Program-made: the position numbers and the translations under genes | The notes under the pieces: model-generated | What the model was told of the DNA's origin: nothing | The model's input: only the letters and a program-made list of their open reading frames with translations | The model's database searches: none | In this document: positions 15,780 through 25,121 of the stretch, one piece after another | How positions within the stretch are numbered: position 1 is the first letter of the stretch | Layout: every line of letters begins with the position of its first letter | DNA from: Candidatus Cloacimonadota bacterium | GTDB lineage: Bacteria; Hydrothermota; E44-bin80 | Assembly (NCBI GenBank): GCA_004375965.1 | Contig: SOIS01000231.1 | Coordinates: forward strand, 1 to 41,962 | Direction: 5' to 3' | DNA: 41,962 nucleotides

Positions 15780-15901
15780 CTTTTTCTATAGTCGTCAATA
15801 AATTTTTTTCTTGCTAAATTCTTCTTTGTGCTTTATTATACTCAATTAATCATGGACAACCTACTCAAACAATTACCTAATTACTAATGCGTGGAGTGAT
15901 T

Positions 15902-18900
15902 ATGAAAGAAAAACTGAATAAAAAGGATTTTTTATTTATAGTTGTCTGTATTGTAATCTCTGTTATTACCTGTTTTGTTTCGCTTAAACTGTATAATCGT
16001 GCATTTCCAGAGGCATCTCTTGACTTCAGAGTAACAAAGGGAGAGGCAAAAATCATTGCAGAGGATTTTCTAAAAACAATGAATCTTGATGTCTCTGATT
16101 ATAGATATGCTTCAAGATTTCGTTACGATAATAATGCGAAGATTTTTCTTGAGAAGGAACTCGGGCTCGAAGAGACGAACAAACTTTTGAAAGAGAAAAT
16201 AAAGATATGGAAGTGGAGCAGTAGATGGTACAAACCTCTCCAAAAAGAGGAATTTACAGTTGACATAAGCCCAGAAGGAGAATTGATAGGATTTATGCAT
16301 CTTCTCCCAGAAGAGGAAGAAGGTGCATCTCTAACAGAAGATGAGGCTAAGAATATCGCTGTCAATTTCATTGAACATAGGTTGGGAAAATCAATCTCAG
16401 AACTTGAATTCGTAGAATCAAACAGCATCGAAAGACCAAAAAGGGTTGATTGGACATTTACCTGGAAGCAGAAAGACCTTGACATTAAGAATGCATCAAA
16501 TAGATACAGAATCTCCATTGGTGGAGACTTTGTAAAAGGTTATTCACAATATTTGAAAATTCCTGAAAAATGGAGGAGGGATTATTCAAGACTCAGATCT
16601 CTCAATGATGCAGCTGGTTCTGTGGATTCCTTCTTTTTGATCCTTCTTGCGCTTGCTATTCTTGTGATATTCATCCAAAAAATAAGGTTAAGAATCCTTG
16701 AGATTAGATTTTCTCTTCTTTTTGGTTCAGTTGCTTTTCTTCTTTCGTTGCTTGCATCATTAAATAGCCTTTCCGTCTACTTCTTTAACTATAATACAAC
16801 AGAATCGCTTGGCGGATTTATTCTCGAGCAAATCTTTTCAACAATAATGGTTTCGCTTTTTGCTGGCATCGTTATCTTTTTAATTACTGCTGTTGCAGAA
16901 TCACTTTACAGGGAACATTACAGAAAAAAGATCAGTGTCAAAAACATCTTTTCTTTAAAAGCACTATCAACCAAAAAATTCTTTATCTCCAATATTCTTG
17001 GTTTAACATTGGCATTTTTCTTTGTTTTTTACCAGATTATCTTCTATATAATAGCAAACAAGCTTGGAGCCTGGGCACCGACAGAAGTTCCATACAGCGA
17101 GATGTTAAATACAAAATTCCCCTGGATATTTGTTCTCCTTGTTGGTTTCTTCCCTGCAGTAAGCGAAGAGTTTATATTTAGGATGTTTGCGATCCCATTT
17201 TTGAAAAAAATCTTTAGATTTACATGGATTGCCCTCATTATTTCTGGCTTTATCTGGGGGTTCGGTCATGCAAGCTATCCAAACCAACCATTTTACATCA
17301 GGGGTATTGAGGTTGGTCTGGCGGGTATCCTTGTAGGCTATTTAATGATACGTTTCAATATCTTCGCAGTATTTATCTGGCATTACACAATAGATGCATT
17401 CTATACTGCTTTCTTGCTCTTCAGGTCGCACAATTCGTATTTTATTATTTCCGGTGCTATTACAGCATTTATAATGTTTATTCCTCTTATTCTTTCAATT
17501 GTTAGATACATAAAATCAAGGGGGTTCGAGCCTGATAAGAATCTGCTCAATGATCAGTACAAGACTCCAGCTGCAGTTGAGGAGCGAATGTTGGAAAGGC
17601 TCGAACCTGAAGCAATACCATACCAACCCCTACCGACAAAAAGAATATTTATTTCTCTTATAATAGTTATTGTGCTTTCAAGCCTTTTCTATGTCAAGAT
17701 AGAGAGGGTTGGAAATTCGTTTCGGTTCAAAACTGGTAAACGGGAAGCACTTGAAACATCTACCAAATTTTTAACAGAAAGAAATGTCGATACAGAATCC
17801 TTTATGAAATCCGTCTATCCTAAAAGGAATTTCAATGCAATTACTGTTAAGTATATTATGGAAAAAGAAGGAGTGAAAGGTGTAAACAGGATGTTCATGG
17901 AGAAATTTATTGGACCTTTATGGAAGTGTAGATATTTTAAGCCACTGGTTAAGGATGAATTCAATCTTTCTCTTGACCCATTAACAGGAGAGGTATCTCA
18001 ATTCATACATAAGATTGAAGAGGAGAAGGAGGGCGAATTTTTAGACGAGAATGTAGCAAAGGAAACTGTATTACATTTTCTTAACGAAAGAGGAATAGAC
18101 CCATCCCTCTATACAATAAAGGAATCGAGTTCTGAGGATAAGAAAAATAGAAGGGATTACTTCTTCGCCTTTGAAAAAAATGAGGGAAATATTGATGAAG
18201 CAAAACAGAGACTCGAGGTAGGTTTATCGGGCACAGAAGTAACTACTTTTTCAAAATATATAAAGATTCCGGAGAAATATAAACGTGAATTGGCGGAGAG
18301 GACCGCATTCTCTGTCATTCTTCTTGTCTTAAGAACTATCACATTAATTTTTTTTACAGCATTTGCAGTCTATTTCTTTATCACACAATTTAATGCACTA
18401 AAGGTGATACGAAAGAGATTAATCATTGCCTCCATTATCATTACCATTCTCTCACTTATAGATAGGTTGAATAGAATCCCCCAACTTCTTAGTACCTATG
18501 ATACTTCCATACCTTTCAAGGTCTATCTTGTAAGTATAGGCTTAGGAACCATAATATTACCCATTGGTATATTCATCATCACCTATTTCTCCCTTCAGGT
18601 TATATTTACAATTAAGAAGGAAACCCTCTCGCTATTTTCAGGATTCAATATAAAAAAGATGTTACGGGATGCTCTCTACATTACATTTTTCTCTATTTTC
18701 GTATTCTTTATCCTCAAGCAGGCACGGGACATTATGTTTTTCCGATTCCCTTCATTTGCAGTATTGGGTTCATTCGGCATACCGTATGCATTGAATGCCT
18801 ATTTACCCTTCTATTCAAATCTTTTTATGAACATCCTGAAAACTATTATTGTTGTTGCTGGCATTGCGGTTTTTATTGAGGTTTTAACAAAACATATTAA

Positions 18901-19243
18901 GAAACAGTACCAGAAACTCATAATAATAATACTTGTACTTATCTCTTTTATACCTGAATCACTGAAGGGAAGCGGTGAGTTCTTCTTTAATCTCTCCTTA
19001 ATTATTTTCTTTACAGCAGCCATTTTCCTTTTGTTGAAATATCTCTTCAGAGATAATCTGCTCGCCTATCCTCTCTGTATCTTCACAACCCTCACCTTTA
19101 TTGGTATTCTCAGATATATCACTCAACCCGCTTTCAGTATACGAATTAACGGGTATATCCTTATTCCCTTCCTCATCCTCCCCTACATCCTGCTCATCAT
19201 AAGAGCTTTCACGGTTAAAAACCGTACCTACATACAAATGTAA
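15902..19243 (+). CDS. CPBP-family intramembrane metalloprotease with duplicated ectodomain/TM module (~1113 aa)
   Basis: SEEFIFRMF (EExxxR), WGFGH, HYTID motifs; two homologous ectodomains. ORF opens at 15887; ATG 15902 chosen. Confidence 0.85.
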   Translation: MKEKLNKKDFLFIVVCIVISVITCFVSLKLYNRAFPEASLDFRVTKGEAKIIAEDFLKTMNLDVSDYRYASRFRYDNNAKIFLEKELGLEETNKLLKEKIKIWKWSSRWYKPLQKEEFTVDISPEGELIGFMHLLPEEEEGASLTEDEAKNIAVNFIEHRLGKSISELEFVESNSIERPKRVDWTFTWKQKDLDIKNASNRYRISIGGDFVKGYSQYLKIPEKWRRDYSRLRSLNDAAGSVDSFFLILLALAILVIFIQKIRLRILEIRFSLLFGSVAFLLSLLASLNSLSVYFFNYNTTESLGGFILEQIFSTIMVSLFAGIVIFLITAVAESLYREHYRKKISVKNIFSLKALSTKKFFISNILGLTLAFFFVFYQIIFYIIANKLGAWAPTEVPYSEMLNTKFPWIFVLLVGFFPAVSEEFIFRMFAIPFLKKIFRFTWIALIISGFIWGFGHASYPNQPFYIRGIEVGLAGILVGYLMIRFNIFAVFIWHYTIDAFYTAFLLFRSHNSYFIISGAITAFIMFIPLILSIVRYIKSRGFEPDKNLLNDQYKTPAAVEERMLERLEPEAIPYQPLPTKRIFISLIIVIVLSSLFYVKIERVGNSFRFKTGKREALETSTKFLTERNVDTESFMKSVYPKRNFNAITVKYIMEKEGVKGVNRMFMEKFIGPLWKCRYFKPLVKDEFNLSLDPLTGEVSQFIHKIEEEKEGEFLDENVAKETVLHFLNERGIDPSLYTIKESSSEDKKNRRDYFFAFEKNEGNIDEAKQRLEVGLSGTEVTTFSKYIKIPEKYKRELAERTAFSVILLVLRTITLIFFTAFAVYFFITQFNALKVIRKRLIIASIIITILSLIDRLNRIPQLLSTYDTSIPFKVYLVSIGLGTIILPIGIFIITYFSLQVIFTIKKETLSLFSGFNIKKMLRDALYITFFSIFVFFILKQARDIMFFRFPSFAVLGSFGIPYALNAYLPFYSNLFMNILKTIIVVAGIAVFIEVLTKHIKKQYQKLIIIILVLISFIPESLKGSGEFFFNLSLIIFFTAAIFLLLKYLFRDNLLAYPLCIFTTLTFIGILRYITQPAFSIRINGYILIPFLILPYILLIIRAFTVKNRTYIQM

Positions 19244-19279: not shown

Positions 19280-20494
19280 CTATTCATACCGCAACGCTTC
19301 CACAGGGTCAAGTCGGGCTGCTTTATTCGCGGGATAGATACCAAAAAATATCCCCACTCCTGTTGAAAATCCAAAACCAAGAAACACTACCCAGAGTGGA
19401 ATTGCAGAGGGAATTTTTGATGCAACTGAAATAATCTTTGCTAAACTGAAACCTACAATAATACCTATTGTTCCACCAAAACCGCTTATTACAACTGCCT
19501 CTGTGAGAAACTGATAAAGAATATCCTTGTACCGTGCACCAATCGCTTTCCTTATACCGATCTCCCTCGTCCTTTCGGTAACGGAAACAAGCATAATATT
19601 CATAATGCCTATGCCTCCAATGAGGAGCGAGAGTGAAGCAACGCCAATCATTACTACAAATGCAGCGCCAGTAAACTTATTATACATATCCATAAGAACG
19701 TCCTGGGTATTAATGGAAAAATCATCTTCCTTCCCAGGTTTTACCTTTCGTATTCTTCTTAAAACTCCTCTGATTTCATCAATCGCCTCTTCCTTATCTT
19801 TAGCAAGAATAGCAATAGCAATAGCTTCCCTTCCTCTTCTTATAAAAAGTTTTCTGAATGTACTGAAAGGAATTATTACCTCATTATCCATACTTTGACC
19901 CAGCATTTTACCCTTTTTCTCAAGAACGCCTACGACTGTAAACTTTGACGCTCCAATCCTCACGATCTTATTCAAAGGGTCCTCGTTGGGGAATAATGTT
20001 TCAACTATATCCGTTCCAATAACACAAACCCTCTTTTTGTGAGCGTTGTCCAATGTTGTGATATACCTTCCTGATTCAAGATCCCTGCCAGTAATAGTCT
20101 GATATTCAGGAGTTGCACCATTAACAGAAACAGGGTTTGTTTTCTCATCTTTGTATTTCAATCTTAAATGACGGCCATCAAGGGGCGAAACAAGTTCCAC
20201 ATTACTGCACAGTTTCTTTATTGCATCTGCATGTTCAGGTGTAATATCCTTTCTACCCCTGTATTTCCACCACTCGCCTCCAGTCTGTACCCAGGGCCAC
20301 TTCTGCACATATATAACATTTGAACCAATGGATGAGAACATATCTGTAACCTTTTTGTTTAATCCAGAAATGAGCGAAACAACAGTTACAACGGTCATAA
20401 CACCAATGATAATTCCAAGAGTTGTTAAAATTGACCTGAGTTTATTTGCCCGAATTGCATCAATTGCTATCTTGAAACTTTCACCTATATGCAT
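19280..20494 (-). CDS. ABC transporter permease, FtsX/MacB type
   Basis: 404 aa; RSILTTLGIIIGVMTVV, SLLIGGIGIMNIMLVSVTERTREIGIRKAIGA, NKAARLDPVEALRYE. Confidence 0.95.
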   Translation of the reverse strand: MHIGESFKIAIDAIRANKLRSILTTLGIIIGVMTVVTVVSLISGLNKKVTDMFSSIGSNVIYVQKWPWVQTGGEWWKYRGRKDITPEHADAIKKLCSNVELVSPLDGRHLRLKYKDEKTNPVSVNGATPEYQTITGRDLESGRYITTLDNAHKKRVCVIGTDIVETLFPNEDPLNKIVRIGASKFTVVGVLEKKGKMLGQSMDNEVIIPFSTFRKLFIRRGREAIAIAILAKDKEEAIDEIRGVLRRIRKVKPGKEDDFSINTQDVLMDMYNKFTGAAFVVMIGVASLSLLIGGIGIMNIMLVSVTERTREIGIRKAIGARYKDILYQFLTEAVVISGFGGTIGIIVGFSLAKIISVASKIPSAIPLWVVFLGFGFSTGVGIFFGIYPANKAARLDPVEALRYE

Positions 20495-20502
20495 TCATTC
20501 TC

Positions 20503-20860
20503 CTTTTAGCCACGGATACATTAGTTTATTTTTTACCGCAAAGAGCTCAGAGATCATATCGTAATTGAGTAATTCAGTTATTAGGTAATTCGTTCTATAG
20601 CCATTCATCCATTAGTCATTCTCCACAATCCTGTTTCTTTGTCTCAGTCCTTATGTTTTTAAGTCAATTCCAGCCAAAGGCTAACTTCAAGTGCAAAGCA
20701 CTTTCTTCCAGCACGCAGAGCTCACTTCCAATGCGTAGCACTCATTCACTCTTTCCATTTCGCATTCTTTCCATTGTATGTTATCTGCCTACTCCATACT
20801 TCCTACTGTCTGCTCCATACTCCCTACTGTATTTTTTCTGTCCTCTGACCCATCTCCTCT
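20503..20860. repeat. Intergenic mosaic of degenerate short-word repeats
   Basis: CTTTTAGCCACGGA, ACCGCAAAGAGCTCAGAGA, GAGTAATTCAGTTATTAGGTAATT, TTCCA-(GCAAAGC) units and 21-bp CTCCATACTTCCTACTGT tandem units in one gap. Confidence 0.7.
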
Positions 20861-20861
20861 A

Positions 20862-22082
20862 TTATCCACCTATCTTTACCTTTTTCCGTCTCCCACCCGA
20901 GCTCTTTCCACTCTTCTCCTCCTCGTCCTTTCCCTTCTTCCCTTTTCCCTTCTTACGGGATGGTTTTTTTGTTTTTACATCGTCACCATCCTCAAGTTTT
21001 GAAAGTACAGAGTATGGTCCTGAAACCACCATTTCTTCCTCCTCTACTCCTTCCTTTATCTCTATCTCTGTTTCACTCGAGATACCTGTTTTCACCTCCC
21101 TGAAATGAGCTTTTCCATCGACTACAACGAAGATCCCTGTTTTCTTCTCCTCTTCCTCCCCTCTTTCTATAACACACTGGATTGGAACCTTAAGCACACT
21201 ATCCCTTCTGGAAGAAATAATATCAACAGAAGAACTCATACCAGGTCTTAATCGGCTATCTGTCTTATCAAATGCAACCTTGACCTTAAAATTTGTAACC
21301 TCCTCCTGTGTCCCCATACCAGAGGTCCTTCCCGCATTAGAAATCTCTACCACATGTCCTTCAAAAATAGTATCACCAAACGCATCCACATTTATCTCAG
21401 CAAACTGCTCTATTTCAAGATCTACAATATCACTCTCGTCCACCTCACATTCTATCTCCATCTGTGAAAGGTCTGACAAAACCATAAGCACTGTTCCTGG
21501 ATTGTTCATTGTTCCAGTTACTACGGTCTCGCCTTCCTCTACATTGAGCCTTGTAACAACACCATTAATCGGACTTTTTATAATTGTCTTATTCAGGTTT
21601 TCAAGTGCATTCTTAAGATTTGCCTGTCGCTCCTCAACGGTCAGTTCAGCCATCCTGAAATCTGTTTTACCTACTTCGAACTCCTCCTTCGATATTAGTA
21701 ATTTTTCATATAATTTTTTCGTCCTCTCAAAAGAAGTACTTTTCATTTCATAACTTGCTTTTGCTGAAAGCAATGAACTGCGTGCGACTTCAACTGCTGC
21801 CTCTTCACGTGTCCGATCAAGTTCTGAAATAACATCCCCTCGCTTTACTTTGTCACCCTCACGAACATTCAACTTAATCAGTTTACCCATAATATCTGAG
21901 CTTATATTGACATCGTTCTTCGGACTAACTCTACCCGGTGCAGAGACGATTGATTTAATTTCTCCCTTTTTCACCTTTTCTGCCTTCACCTCTATTGCCT
22001 TGCCCTTAAATTTTACATTCATTACAACTATAATAAGAATAACAACTAAAATACCAACACCAATAATTATCTTTTTCTTCAT
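20862..22082 (-). CDS. Periplasmic adaptor (HlyD/MacA-like membrane fusion protein)
   Basis: VKKGEIKSIVSAPGRVSPKNDVNISSDIMGKLIKLNVREGDKVKRGDVI; KSPINGVVTRLNVEEGETV; basic C-terminal tail. Confidence 0.92.
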   Translation of the reverse strand: MKKKIIIGVGILVVILIIVVMNVKFKGKAIEVKAEKVKKGEIKSIVSAPGRVSPKNDVNISSDIMGKLIKLNVREGDKVKRGDVISELDRTREEAAVEVARSSLLSAKASYEMKSTSFERTKKLYEKLLISKEEFEVGKTDFRMAELTVEERQANLKNALENLNKTIIKSPINGVVTRLNVEEGETVVTGTMNNPGTVLMVLSDLSQMEIECEVDESDIVDLEIEQFAEINVDAFGDTIFEGHVVEISNAGRTSGMGTQEEVTNFKVKVAFDKTDSRLRPGMSSSVDIISSRRDSVLKVPIQCVIERGEEEEKKTGIFVVVDGKAHFREVKTGISSETEIEIKEGVEEEEMVVSGPYSVLSKLEDGDDVKTKKPSRKKGKGKKGKDEEEKSGKSSGGRRKKVKIGG

Positions 22083-22141
22083 TTCCTCTTCTCCTAATTT
22101 TATAATCTATCTAATCATATTTATTCCCTTTTTATCATTTA

Positions 22142-22173
22142 TCCTACATCTTACATCGTACATCTTACATCCC
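22142..22173. repeat. TACATCTTACATC degenerate array, left of lepB
   Basis: tcctacatcttacatcgtacatcttacatccc. Confidence 0.75.
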
Positions 22174-22191
22174 TTTACTCTCCCTTATATA

Positions 22192-22959
22192 TCAGAATAC
22201 GAAATTGAGAATTCTTCTCCACCTAATTTTTTCCCAGATTCTATATAAAGGAACACCCTTATCCCAGGAGAAGTATAGGATTAACGGTTTACCAAGCGCA
22301 TCCCTCTTGTCAAGCGGTCCCCAGAATCTTGAGTCACCAGAGTTGTCCCTGTTGTCTCCCATAACAAAGATACTCCCTTCTGGCACAATAATAGGACCAA
22401 AGTTATCCCTGCAATATCCTCCAACAAAACGAAATTCTCCCCCCTCCCAATCCCGCTGGTAGGTAAACGGGTTAATATTAGGTATTGGGGGAAACTCCCG
22501 TAGGTCCCTGTGCACGACGTTTTCCTCAAGAAGACTTTTACTGTTAATATAAACTATCTTATGTTTTACTTCTACAGTGTCTCCGGAAAGGCCGACACAT
22601 CTTTTGACAAAATATTTTTTAGTATATGGGGAAATAAAAATAACAATTTCACCCCGCTCAGGTTCTCTAAATTTAAGTATACTCTTCTTTGTAAAAGGTA
22701 TATGGATTCCGTAAACCATTTTATTAACAAGAAGAAAATCGCCAATAAGAAGTGTATCCTCCATTGAACCGGTAGGAATCATAAACGACTGTATAAAGAA
22801 TGTTCTTATAAACATTGCAATAAAAAATGCCCAAATAATAGATTCGACCCATTCCCTTAGTTTCGACTTTTTCTTATCTTTTTTATTATCTACTCTACCT
22901 CTCCTTTGTTTTTTCATTTTATTCTGTTTTGGCGTCAACGGCTGTTTCATTACATACAC
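22192..22959 (-). CDS. lepB: Signal peptidase I (alternative ATG at 22950)
   Basis: SFMIPTGSMEDTLLIGDFLLVNK (Ser), YFVKRCVGLSGDTV (Lys), MGDNRDNSGDSRFWG. Confidence 0.95.
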   Translation of the reverse strand: MYVMKQPLTPKQNKMKKQRRGRVDNKKDKKKSKLREWVESIIWAFFIAMFIRTFFIQSFMIPTGSMEDTLLIGDFLLVNKMVYGIHIPFTKKSILKFREPERGEIVIFISPYTKKYFVKRCVGLSGDTVEVKHKIVYINSKSLLEENVVHRDLREFPPIPNINPFTYQRDWEGGEFRFVGGYCRDNFGPIIVPEGSIFVMGDNRDNSGDSRFWGPLDKRDALGKPLILYFSWDKGVPLYRIWEKIRWRRILNFVF

Positions 22960-22990
22960 CTTACATCCTGCATCTTACATCCTACATCCC
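22951..22990. repeat. TACATCTTACATC degenerate array, right of lepB
   Basis: tacatacaccttacatcctgcatcttacatcctacatccc. Confidence 0.75.
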
Positions 22991-23026
22991 ATATTCTCAT
23001 CTTAGTTACCTCCTACACCATCACCT

Positions 23027-24316
23027 TTAATCAACAATTCTCTCCCCAAGAAGATTTGTTACATAAAAAGTAGCAAGCAATAAATCGAAATATGAGGAAA
23101 TCTTTGTCACCTGAGCCTGTTCATAATCCTGTTCCGCATCAATGAGTTCAAGAATTGTTGCAGCGCCCAAATTGTATTTCTCCTGCGTCATCCTGTAACC
23201 TAATTCTGCCTTTTCGAGATTCTTCTCAGCAAGGGTAAAGGTCTTTTCTGCCTCATCTATTGCAAGCAGTGCCTTTTTCAGTTCTATTCCTTTTATTGCA
23301 ATAGCATCGCTAAGTTCAAGTTCTTTCATTTTTAACAATGCTTTACTCTGTTTAATGGATGCTGATCTTGAGAAACCCGTAAAAAGAGGTAAAGTTACAC
23401 TTGCACCAACACTCCAAGAATCATTTTCATCCCATTCCTCCTTTGCGAAGGTGAATTTATCTCCAGAGTAACCATAACTCCCAGACAACGATAGTTTCGG
23501 GAGAAACTTACAGTATGTGGATGAGAGTTGTGCTTTACCACTGGAGACCGACAATCGTTCAGCCAAAACTTCTGGATTCTCCTCCTTCACTCTCTCAAGT
23601 AATGCATCATAATCATTGATACTGTAATCCTTGACTTCAATACTTTCCTCCTTTACATCAAATTCTAAAGCAGGCTCAAGTCCTATTATGTAAGCAAGAT
23701 TTGCTTTTGAAAGCTCTATATCCTTCTCAGCCATTAGCAAATCGAGTTCTGATTGATTTTTCACTACCTCAGACCTTAAAAGGTCAACCTTCGAAACCGT
23801 TCCAATGTCATACATAAGTCTTGTTTTCCTCAGATTCTCCTCACTCTCCCTGAAACCTAATTCCTTTACCGATAGAAGTCTCTTCTTTTTAAGAAGGTCG
23901 TAAAAGAATCCAGCAACCGAGTATTCTATCTCATTAACTGCTGCTTCGTATAATGCATTGCTTTCTTTAACGTCTATTCTCGAACTCTTTATATCAAATA
24001 TACTGGAAAGGTCAAAGACTGTCTGGTTCAGGGAAATATCTGATGAGTATGTATCCGTATACGGTTCAGTACCAAAAATTGATGAACTTCTATTCACAGA
24101 ACTCCTCGCGCTGATATAGGGAAGCATCTCAGAGTAACTCAAAAGCTTCTGTGCTTGAGACAGTGAAATACTCTCCCTGGTTTTTCTTAGCGAAAGATTA
24201 TTTCTTACCGCCATATCAATACAATCATTCAGCGTATAAATCCTTCCAGAAAGCAAAGTTGGAAAAAAAACAAAAATTAAAATACGACAAATAATTGTAT
24301 GTTTATAGTTATTCAT
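23027..24316 (-). CDS. TolC family outer membrane efflux protein
   Basis: 429 aa; signal peptide, YTLNDCIDMAVRNN, heptad-rich helices, EKYNLGAATILELIDAEQDYEQAQ. Confidence 0.93.
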   Translation of the reverse strand: MNNYKHTIICRILIFVFFPTLLSGRIYTLNDCIDMAVRNNLSLRKTRESISLSQAQKLLSYSEMLPYISARSSVNRSSSIFGTEPYTDTYSSDISLNQTVFDLSSIFDIKSSRIDVKESNALYEAAVNEIEYSVAGFFYDLLKKKRLLSVKELGFRESEENLRKTRLMYDIGTVSKVDLLRSEVVKNQSELDLLMAEKDIELSKANLAYIIGLEPALEFDVKEESIEVKDYSINDYDALLERVKEENPEVLAERLSVSSGKAQLSSTYCKFLPKLSLSGSYGYSGDKFTFAKEEWDENDSWSVGASVTLPLFTGFSRSASIKQSKALLKMKELELSDAIAIKGIELKKALLAIDEAEKTFTLAEKNLEKAELGYRMTQEKYNLGAATILELIDAEQDYEQAQVTKISSYFDLLLATFYVTNLLGERIVD

Positions 24317-24395
24317 AGTTATTTGTCTCGTTTTGACATGATTTTTTCTATTGTTTCTACCCTTTGTCGTCGGTTTTCATTATCCTTTCCAATTG

Positions 24396-24444
24396 TCATT
24401 GCGAGCTCCTCTTCTTGCGCGACTTTTGCAAAGCAATCTCATTT
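24396..24444. repeat. Dispersed repeat-like GTCATTGCGAGCTCC...GCAAAGCAATCTC overlapping the 3' end of the ABC ATPase gene
   Basis: GTCATTGCGAG...AGCAATCTC layout; related short copy GGCTCGCAATGACAGG near 66-82. Confidence 0.6.
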
Positions 24445-25121
24445 TTCCCATTATCCTCATCTTTCACAATCAATCCATCCCTTATATGTACAATCCTTTC
24501 TGTGAAATCAGCAACCTCCCGCTCGTGCGTCACAACAATTACTGTTTTTCCCTTCTTATTAAGAGCTGTAAACAGTTTCATTATCTCAACTCCTGTCTTG
24601 GTATCAATATTTCCAGTAGGTTCATCGGCAAGAATAACCATTGGATAATTAACCAATGCCCTGGCTATTGCAACCCTCTGTCTTTCACCGCCGGAGAGTT
24701 CGCTCGGTCTATGCTTTATCCTATCGCTGAGATCAACCTCAGATAAAACCTCAATAACCCTTTTCCTCCTCTCTTTTGAATGCATACCTGCATAGACCAG
24801 AGGAAGTTCAACATTGTATAAGCAGGTCTCTCTTGGAATAAGATTAAATGTCTGAAAGACGAATCCCATACATTTACTCCTTATCCTTGAAAGTTCATCA
24901 TCATCCAGTGTTGTAACATCCTTACCATCAAGGAAATACTCACCTTCTGTAGGTTTATCGAGACATCCTATTATATGCATAAGAGTGGATTTACCGCTGC
25001 CGGATGGTCCCATTATGGAGAGAAATTCACCTTCTTTTATGGAAATGGTGATACCATTGAGTGCCCTTACTTCAACTTTGCCCATCTGATAAATCTTCTT
25101 CACATTGGTAAGTTCTATCAT
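24396..25121 (-). CDS. ABC transporter ATP-binding protein, LolD/MacB type
   Basis: Walker A GPSGSGKST, signature LSGGERQRVAIARAL, Walker B VILADEPTGNID. Confidence 0.96.
   Translation of the reverse strand: MIELTNVKKIYQMGKVEVRALNGITISIKEGEFLSIMGPSGSGKSTLMHIIGCLDKPTEGEYFLDGKDVTTLDDDELSRIRSKCMGFVFQTFNLIPRETCLYNVELPLVYAGMHSKERRKRVIEVLSEVDLSDRIKHRPSELSGGERQRVAIARALVNYPMVILADEPTGNIDTKTGVEIMKLFTALNKKGKTVIVVTHEREVADFTERIVHIRDGLIVKDEDNGKNEIALQKSRKKRSSQ

Follow-up and report, generated by a model that had tools for sequence, protein, structure and literature searches.

One gene of the window (the whole 41,962-nucleotide stretch of DNA analysed here) appears to encode an intramembrane protease with its own inactive twin attached: a protein of 1113 amino acids made of two collinear modules of ~550 residues, the first with a complete set of CPBP-type catalytic residues, the second with none and yet conserved. 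Our best explanation, held with modest confidence, is that a CPBP glutamic protease was duplicated and fused, and that the dead half and the PepSY-like domains act on the live half in cis. CPBP proteases are widespread, but to our knowledge a function has been established for few of the bacterial members, and their regulation is mostly unknown.

The gene and its surroundings

The longest-ATG version of the open reading frame is 15887-19243, with an upstream ATG five codons before position 15902. The start is placed at 15902 because it is there that the homologous protein of L004 (80% identical; it begins MKEKLNKKDF) has its initiating methionine. The gene stands alone: upstream of it is a GNAT gene in divergent orientation, and downstream a MacB-type export cluster converges on it. 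That cluster (19280-25121, minus strand) specifies a MacB-type permease, an HlyD-family adaptor, an OEP outer-membrane factor and an ABC ATPase, and a signal peptidase S26 gene (22192-22959) sits inside it. The genome of the window encodes three PF02517 proteins; the open frames that contain the other two are 251 and 281 amino acids long.

Neighbors vary across the relatives examined, close kin excepted: no conserved operon partner or neighbor was found, nor did the comparison of neighborhoods among relatives yield a substrate or partner for the two-module protein. Two separate observations can be recorded. Beside one two-module homologue lies a gene (L057:4568-6067) for a protein with a C-terminal Por_Secre_tail sorting domain, and three related genomes have in common the gene directly 3' of their single-module gene (L068:3518-4384, L065:4209-5039, L066:4979-5797); the product of the first of these matches DUF3108.

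Architecture: a duplication of the entire module

The two modules are built alike: one TM helix, an ectodomain of ~200 amino acids that is predicted to be periplasmic, and then nine more TM helices (Table 1). The original prediction was of a repeated ectodomain joined to TM helices; the repetition is real, and it extends over the whole module, the TM bundle included, as judged by end-to-end profile alignment and helix pattern. The two ectodomains align over their full length with a Smith-Waterman score of 253 (500 shuffles gave a mean of 36, a standard deviation of 6 and a maximum of 75), and their profiles match at E 4e-45. Family profiles of residues 1-565 and 566-1113 are collinear over 515-534 columns (E 4e-56 to 7e-61), TM2-4 taken alone match between modules at E 5e-12, and the ten peaks of family-averaged hydropathy correspond one to one. 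Hydropathy of the core correlates at 0.70, maximally at a shift of -1 (69 shifts tried; the reversed maximum is 0.52). (A technical note: hhalign with reversed and permuted profiles returned a near-constant score of 12.8 and was not used as a null.)

Table 1. Features of the two-module protein and its gene (plus strand; positions in the window)
Feature	Residues	Positions	Strand	Basis or remark
Whole gene: two-module CPBP protease/pseudoprotease (predicted)	1113 aa	15902..19243	+	ORF; start by homology to L004; nine two-module homologues
Module 1, TM1	10-28	15929..15985	+	Hydropathy
Ectodomain 1, tandem PepSY-like	38-235	16013..16606	+	AF2 pLDDT 88.6; Foldseek top match 5boi YpeB; PF16244
Module 1, TM2-TM4	240-332	16619..16897	+	Hydropathy; homologous to module 2, E 5e-12
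Active CPBP core (predicted), TM5-TM10	346-540	16937..17521	+	PF02517; dN/dS 0.04
EExxxR	E422-R427	17165..17182	+	Invariant in module 1 (A1) and single-module relatives
GH	H456	17264..17269	+	H invariant
RxxE	R467-E470	17300..17311	+	Invariant in module 1 (A1); one RxxQ among singles
HxxxD	H494-D498	17381..17395	+	H invariant; final position D or N
Inter-module linker, predicted cytoplasmic	541-580	17522..17641	+	Positive-inside pattern
Module 2, first TM helix	582-600	17645..17701	+	Hydropathy
Ectodomain 2, PepSY-like	605-799	17714..18298	+	Homology to ectodomain 1, E 4e-45; PF16244 weak
Module 2, TM helices 2-4	800-909	18299..18628	+	Homology to module 1 TM2-4
Module 2, putative pseudo-CPBP core without catalytic residues	910-1105	18629..19216	+	Six matching helices, r 0.70; no motif; dN/dS 0.13; not recognised by sequence alone

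The PepSY-like character of the ectodomain, originally a guess, is supported by structure prediction. The AF2 model (five alignment rows; pLDDT 88.6) consists of two helix-plus-sheet repeats, a helix being followed by four antiparallel strands, and its best PDB match by Foldseek is 5boi, the C-terminal domain and PepSY region of YpeB (probability 1.00, E 2.4e-3; the TM score of 0.47 makes the match a moderate one); BLIP and DUF2874 proteins come lower in the list, among weaker, mixed matches. Pfam finds PF16244 (DUF4901, the YcdB/YcdC-repeat family) in both ectodomains, weakly in the second; DUF4901 passes its cut-off, and the PepSY model stays below its own (YPEB_PepSY1-2, 13.3 bits against 31.7). 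A tandem PepSY-like fold is thus a supported, model-based assignment. PepSY was first described as an intramolecular inhibitor of proteases, and other, non-inhibitory roles are known (PMC10653890). Because of those other roles, inhibition by the ectodomain is something that we infer.

Module 1 as the predicted live half

Module 1 is best read, from its sequence, as a predicted intramembrane glutamic protease of the CPBP/Rce1 superfamily. PF02517 (Rce1-like) matches the protein once, at residues 406-499 (43.9 bits against a cut-off of 22.4), and Pfam yields no second match in the protein even at E 10. EExxxR and two histidines are carried by separate TM helices, with a D or N four residues past the last histidine, and the order of motifs matches that of MmRce1: E422, E423, H456, H494 and D498 correspond to E140, E141, H173, H227 and N231, and R427 to R145 (MmRce1 residues from PMC12067869). 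E422, E423, R427, H456, R467, E470, H494 and D498 are invariant in eight aligned two-module proteins, that of the window included. As originally proposed, the CPBP motifs are confined to the first half. All complete copies of module 1 have EExxxR, [GA]H and Hxxx[DN], and in addition RxxE, at the positions expected from the alignment; 0/9 module 2s do. A match to a curated, myxosortase-like sorting-enzyme model was also sought: NCBIfam gave no relevant hit up to E 10.

The positive-inside pattern, which is the same in both modules and in single-module relatives, places N-termini, linker and C-terminus inside, and the ectodomains and the GH loop outside. Both termini of MmRce1 are lumenal, and its cavity opens to the cytosol (PMC12067869). 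If the hydropathy-based count of helices is right, the family would be inverted relative to MmRce1, and the active site would consequently open towards the PepSY domains.

Relatives, and a second dead-live pair

Of the 147 genomes analysed from the window's phylum, 9 carry a two-module protein, in one case divided between two contigs; a complete single-module form was seen in none of the 147. The nearest named record, L004, is assigned to Cloacimonadota; it is the same 3989-base contig as L007, which belongs to a genome in the window's family. The one-module version is represented by L005, an Omnitrophota record, and occurs in ~75 of 384 genomes of that phylum, mostly as proteins of 530-630 amino acids. 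The full catalytic set is present in 76 of the 78 complete single-module ORFs; one of the remaining two has RxxQ and one is dead. The members of a second single-module group (L041-L055) have a C-terminal extension of ~65 residues, in which an HQxxN stretch is often found. A PDB sequence search with the family profile gave no match, and a search of plasmid proteins gave one weak match, to the CPBP region only.

The one dead single-module gene, L064:2-1708, overlaps the intact gene that follows it (L064:1708-3357; together the G345 pair) by one base, so that dead modules in this sample are found only fused or adjacent to an active one. The module 2s cluster without exception in a single group of the tree (93/75), modules 1 and 2 together make up one side of a branch (93/81), and the G345 pair is placed among the singles. 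The pairing of protease with pseudoprotease therefore likely arose again, as adjacent genes, in another phylum, to judge by this tree. Common origin of the dead G345 gene with the module 2 clade is disfavored by the tree and not rejected (AU p 0.10).

What has become of module 2?

The second half ends, as originally noted, in TM helices that bear no catalytic motif: nine of them follow its ectodomain, and the catalytic set is absent from 9/9 module 2s. The loss has not released the sequence from selection. When the window is compared with L004, dN/dS comes to 0.13 for the dead core, 0.09-0.11 for the ectodomains and 0.04 for the live core; module 2 is accordingly constrained, though less so than module 1. 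Values for module 2 range over 0.11-0.14 for this pair of sequences and over 0.11-0.23 for L009 and L010. That a duplicate should have lost every catalytic residue and yet stay conserved points to a role of the dead half in controlling or supporting the live one. The earlier notion of a pseudo-protease partner in one chain is well supported by motif loss across the family, matching helices, purifying selection and the two-gene dead/active pair elsewhere; the PepSY-like ectodomain likewise has support, and a sensor or inhibitor role is a plausible proposal.

Is the second bundle a CPBP bundle at all? Very probably it is a decayed one, on the strength of collinearity and helix registry, although sequence alone no longer detects it. 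It could instead be an unrelated TM domain that has taken the place of the CPBP core behind a duplicated PepSY ectodomain and TM2-4, as the weak direct comparisons would allow: the C-terminal cores of the two modules, aligned by themselves, reach hhalign probabilities of 2-9%, and the active-core HMM scores module 2 cores near zero (hmmsearch) while the dead single-module L064 gene still attains 145 bits. Equal length, six helices in register, HMM alignments of module 2 that run end to end in L008, L009 and L010, and the same positive-inside pattern make such a replacement improbable. (The AF2 model of module 2, from an alignment of two rows, has a pLDDT of 37.)

The main rival, which we consider rather unlikely, grants module 2 its ancestry and assigns it a purely structural role: a putative homodimeric single-module ancestor would have been fused, with module 2 serving folding, stability or substrate docking instead of acting as a switch, and the second copy would have been free to lose catalysis since one active site suffices. 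Module 2 indeed evolves faster (core identity of 76% vs 93% for module 1), and no polar position of its TM bundle is invariant. The CPBP homologue APH-1 is one of the subunits of gamma-secretase (PMC6588880), and it has been suggested to play a chaperone-like role (PMC7387801). Both PepSY-like ectodomains are retained, however, and a pure TM scaffold would not need them. A more radical proposal, and one with distinctly poorer prospects, is that proteolysis is not the main function and that the whole protein is a membrane regulator or chaperone in the manner of Abx1 or SpdC. There are precedents: Abx1, whose CPBP motifs are intact, does not need its catalytic residues and still regulates CovS when all of them are mutated (PMC3578759), and SpdC and LnsB do without key catalytic residues (PMC7387801). 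The catalytic positions are nevertheless strictly kept in module 1 and in distant single-module relatives, with a dN/dS of 0.04 in the active core; such strict conservation favors proteolysis over a non-catalytic role.

A dead twin proposed to act in cis

How might the dead half act on the live one? The ancestor would have been a single module, a PepSY-like periplasmic domain with a CPBP bundle, whose gene was duplicated and fused, the second module then turning into a pseudoprotease. Both ectodomains would face the periplasm, as would the mouth of the active site, and modules 1 and 2 would associate within the chain into an asymmetric pseudo-dimer. Together, the dead module and PepSY domains may then control substrate entry, or they may keep the live module switched off until it is released by the binding of a periplasmic signal or substrate, a form of in-cis control that can be likened to that exerted by a pseudokinase on an adjoining kinase. 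Module 1 would cleave membrane-anchored substrates, possibly their C-terminal tails. The placement of the GH loop on the same face as the ectodomains, and the dead single-module gene directly before an active one, are counted for the general interpretation. Counted against it are the absence of a conserved neighbor among the relatives examined, the failure of sequence alone to recognise the module 2 core as CPBP, the non-inhibitory roles of PepSY domains and the example of Abx1. Its more specific version, in which PepSY ectodomains and pseudo-module of a covalently attached dead twin gate the live active site, and in which the pairing recurred as adjacent genes in another phylum, is possible and is put forward tentatively.

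Comparison with known systems

CPBP/Rce1-like glutamic intramembrane proteases (PF02517; MmRce1, 4CAD, and the myxosortase MrtX) share with the two-module protein the set of EExxxR, H and HxxxD/N in four TM helices; they differ from it in that the latter has ten helices per module, a PepSY-like ectodomain, a predicted inverted topology and a second, dead module. Dead or diverged CPBP partners have precedents. APH-1 is a CPBP homologue recruited as the partner of an intramembrane protease (PMC6588880), but it is eukaryotic, forms a subunit of its own, and has presenilin as its protease partner rather than a CPBP protein. SpdC (LyrA) and LnsB of Staphylococcus aureus are bacterial proteins of CPBP fold that lack key catalytic residues (PMC7387801), but they are single-module, stand-alone and unfused to an active copy. 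YpeB and other PepSY-domain proteins, and YcdB/YcdC (PF16244), resemble the ectodomain in fold (5boi) and Pfam family respectively; they are not fused to a protease, and the partner of YpeB is a lytic transglycosylase. The iRhom pseudoproteases, dead intramembrane proteases that act as regulators (PMC6451368), are similar by analogy only: they belong to the rhomboid family, which has no relation to CPBP, and their genes are separate from those of active rhomboids. In the literature searched, no description of a fused active-dead CPBP pair was found.

In this family a single chain unites a predicted active protease with its dead copy and a domain that may be inhibitory, and both single-module relatives and an unfused pair are available for comparison. 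Such a family would allow direct tests of how a glutamic intramembrane protease is regulated. One can think of it as a bacterial parallel to the way in which dead CPBP folds such as APH-1 have been recruited and, if the proposed interpretation is true, as the membrane counterpart of kinase-pseudokinase fusions.
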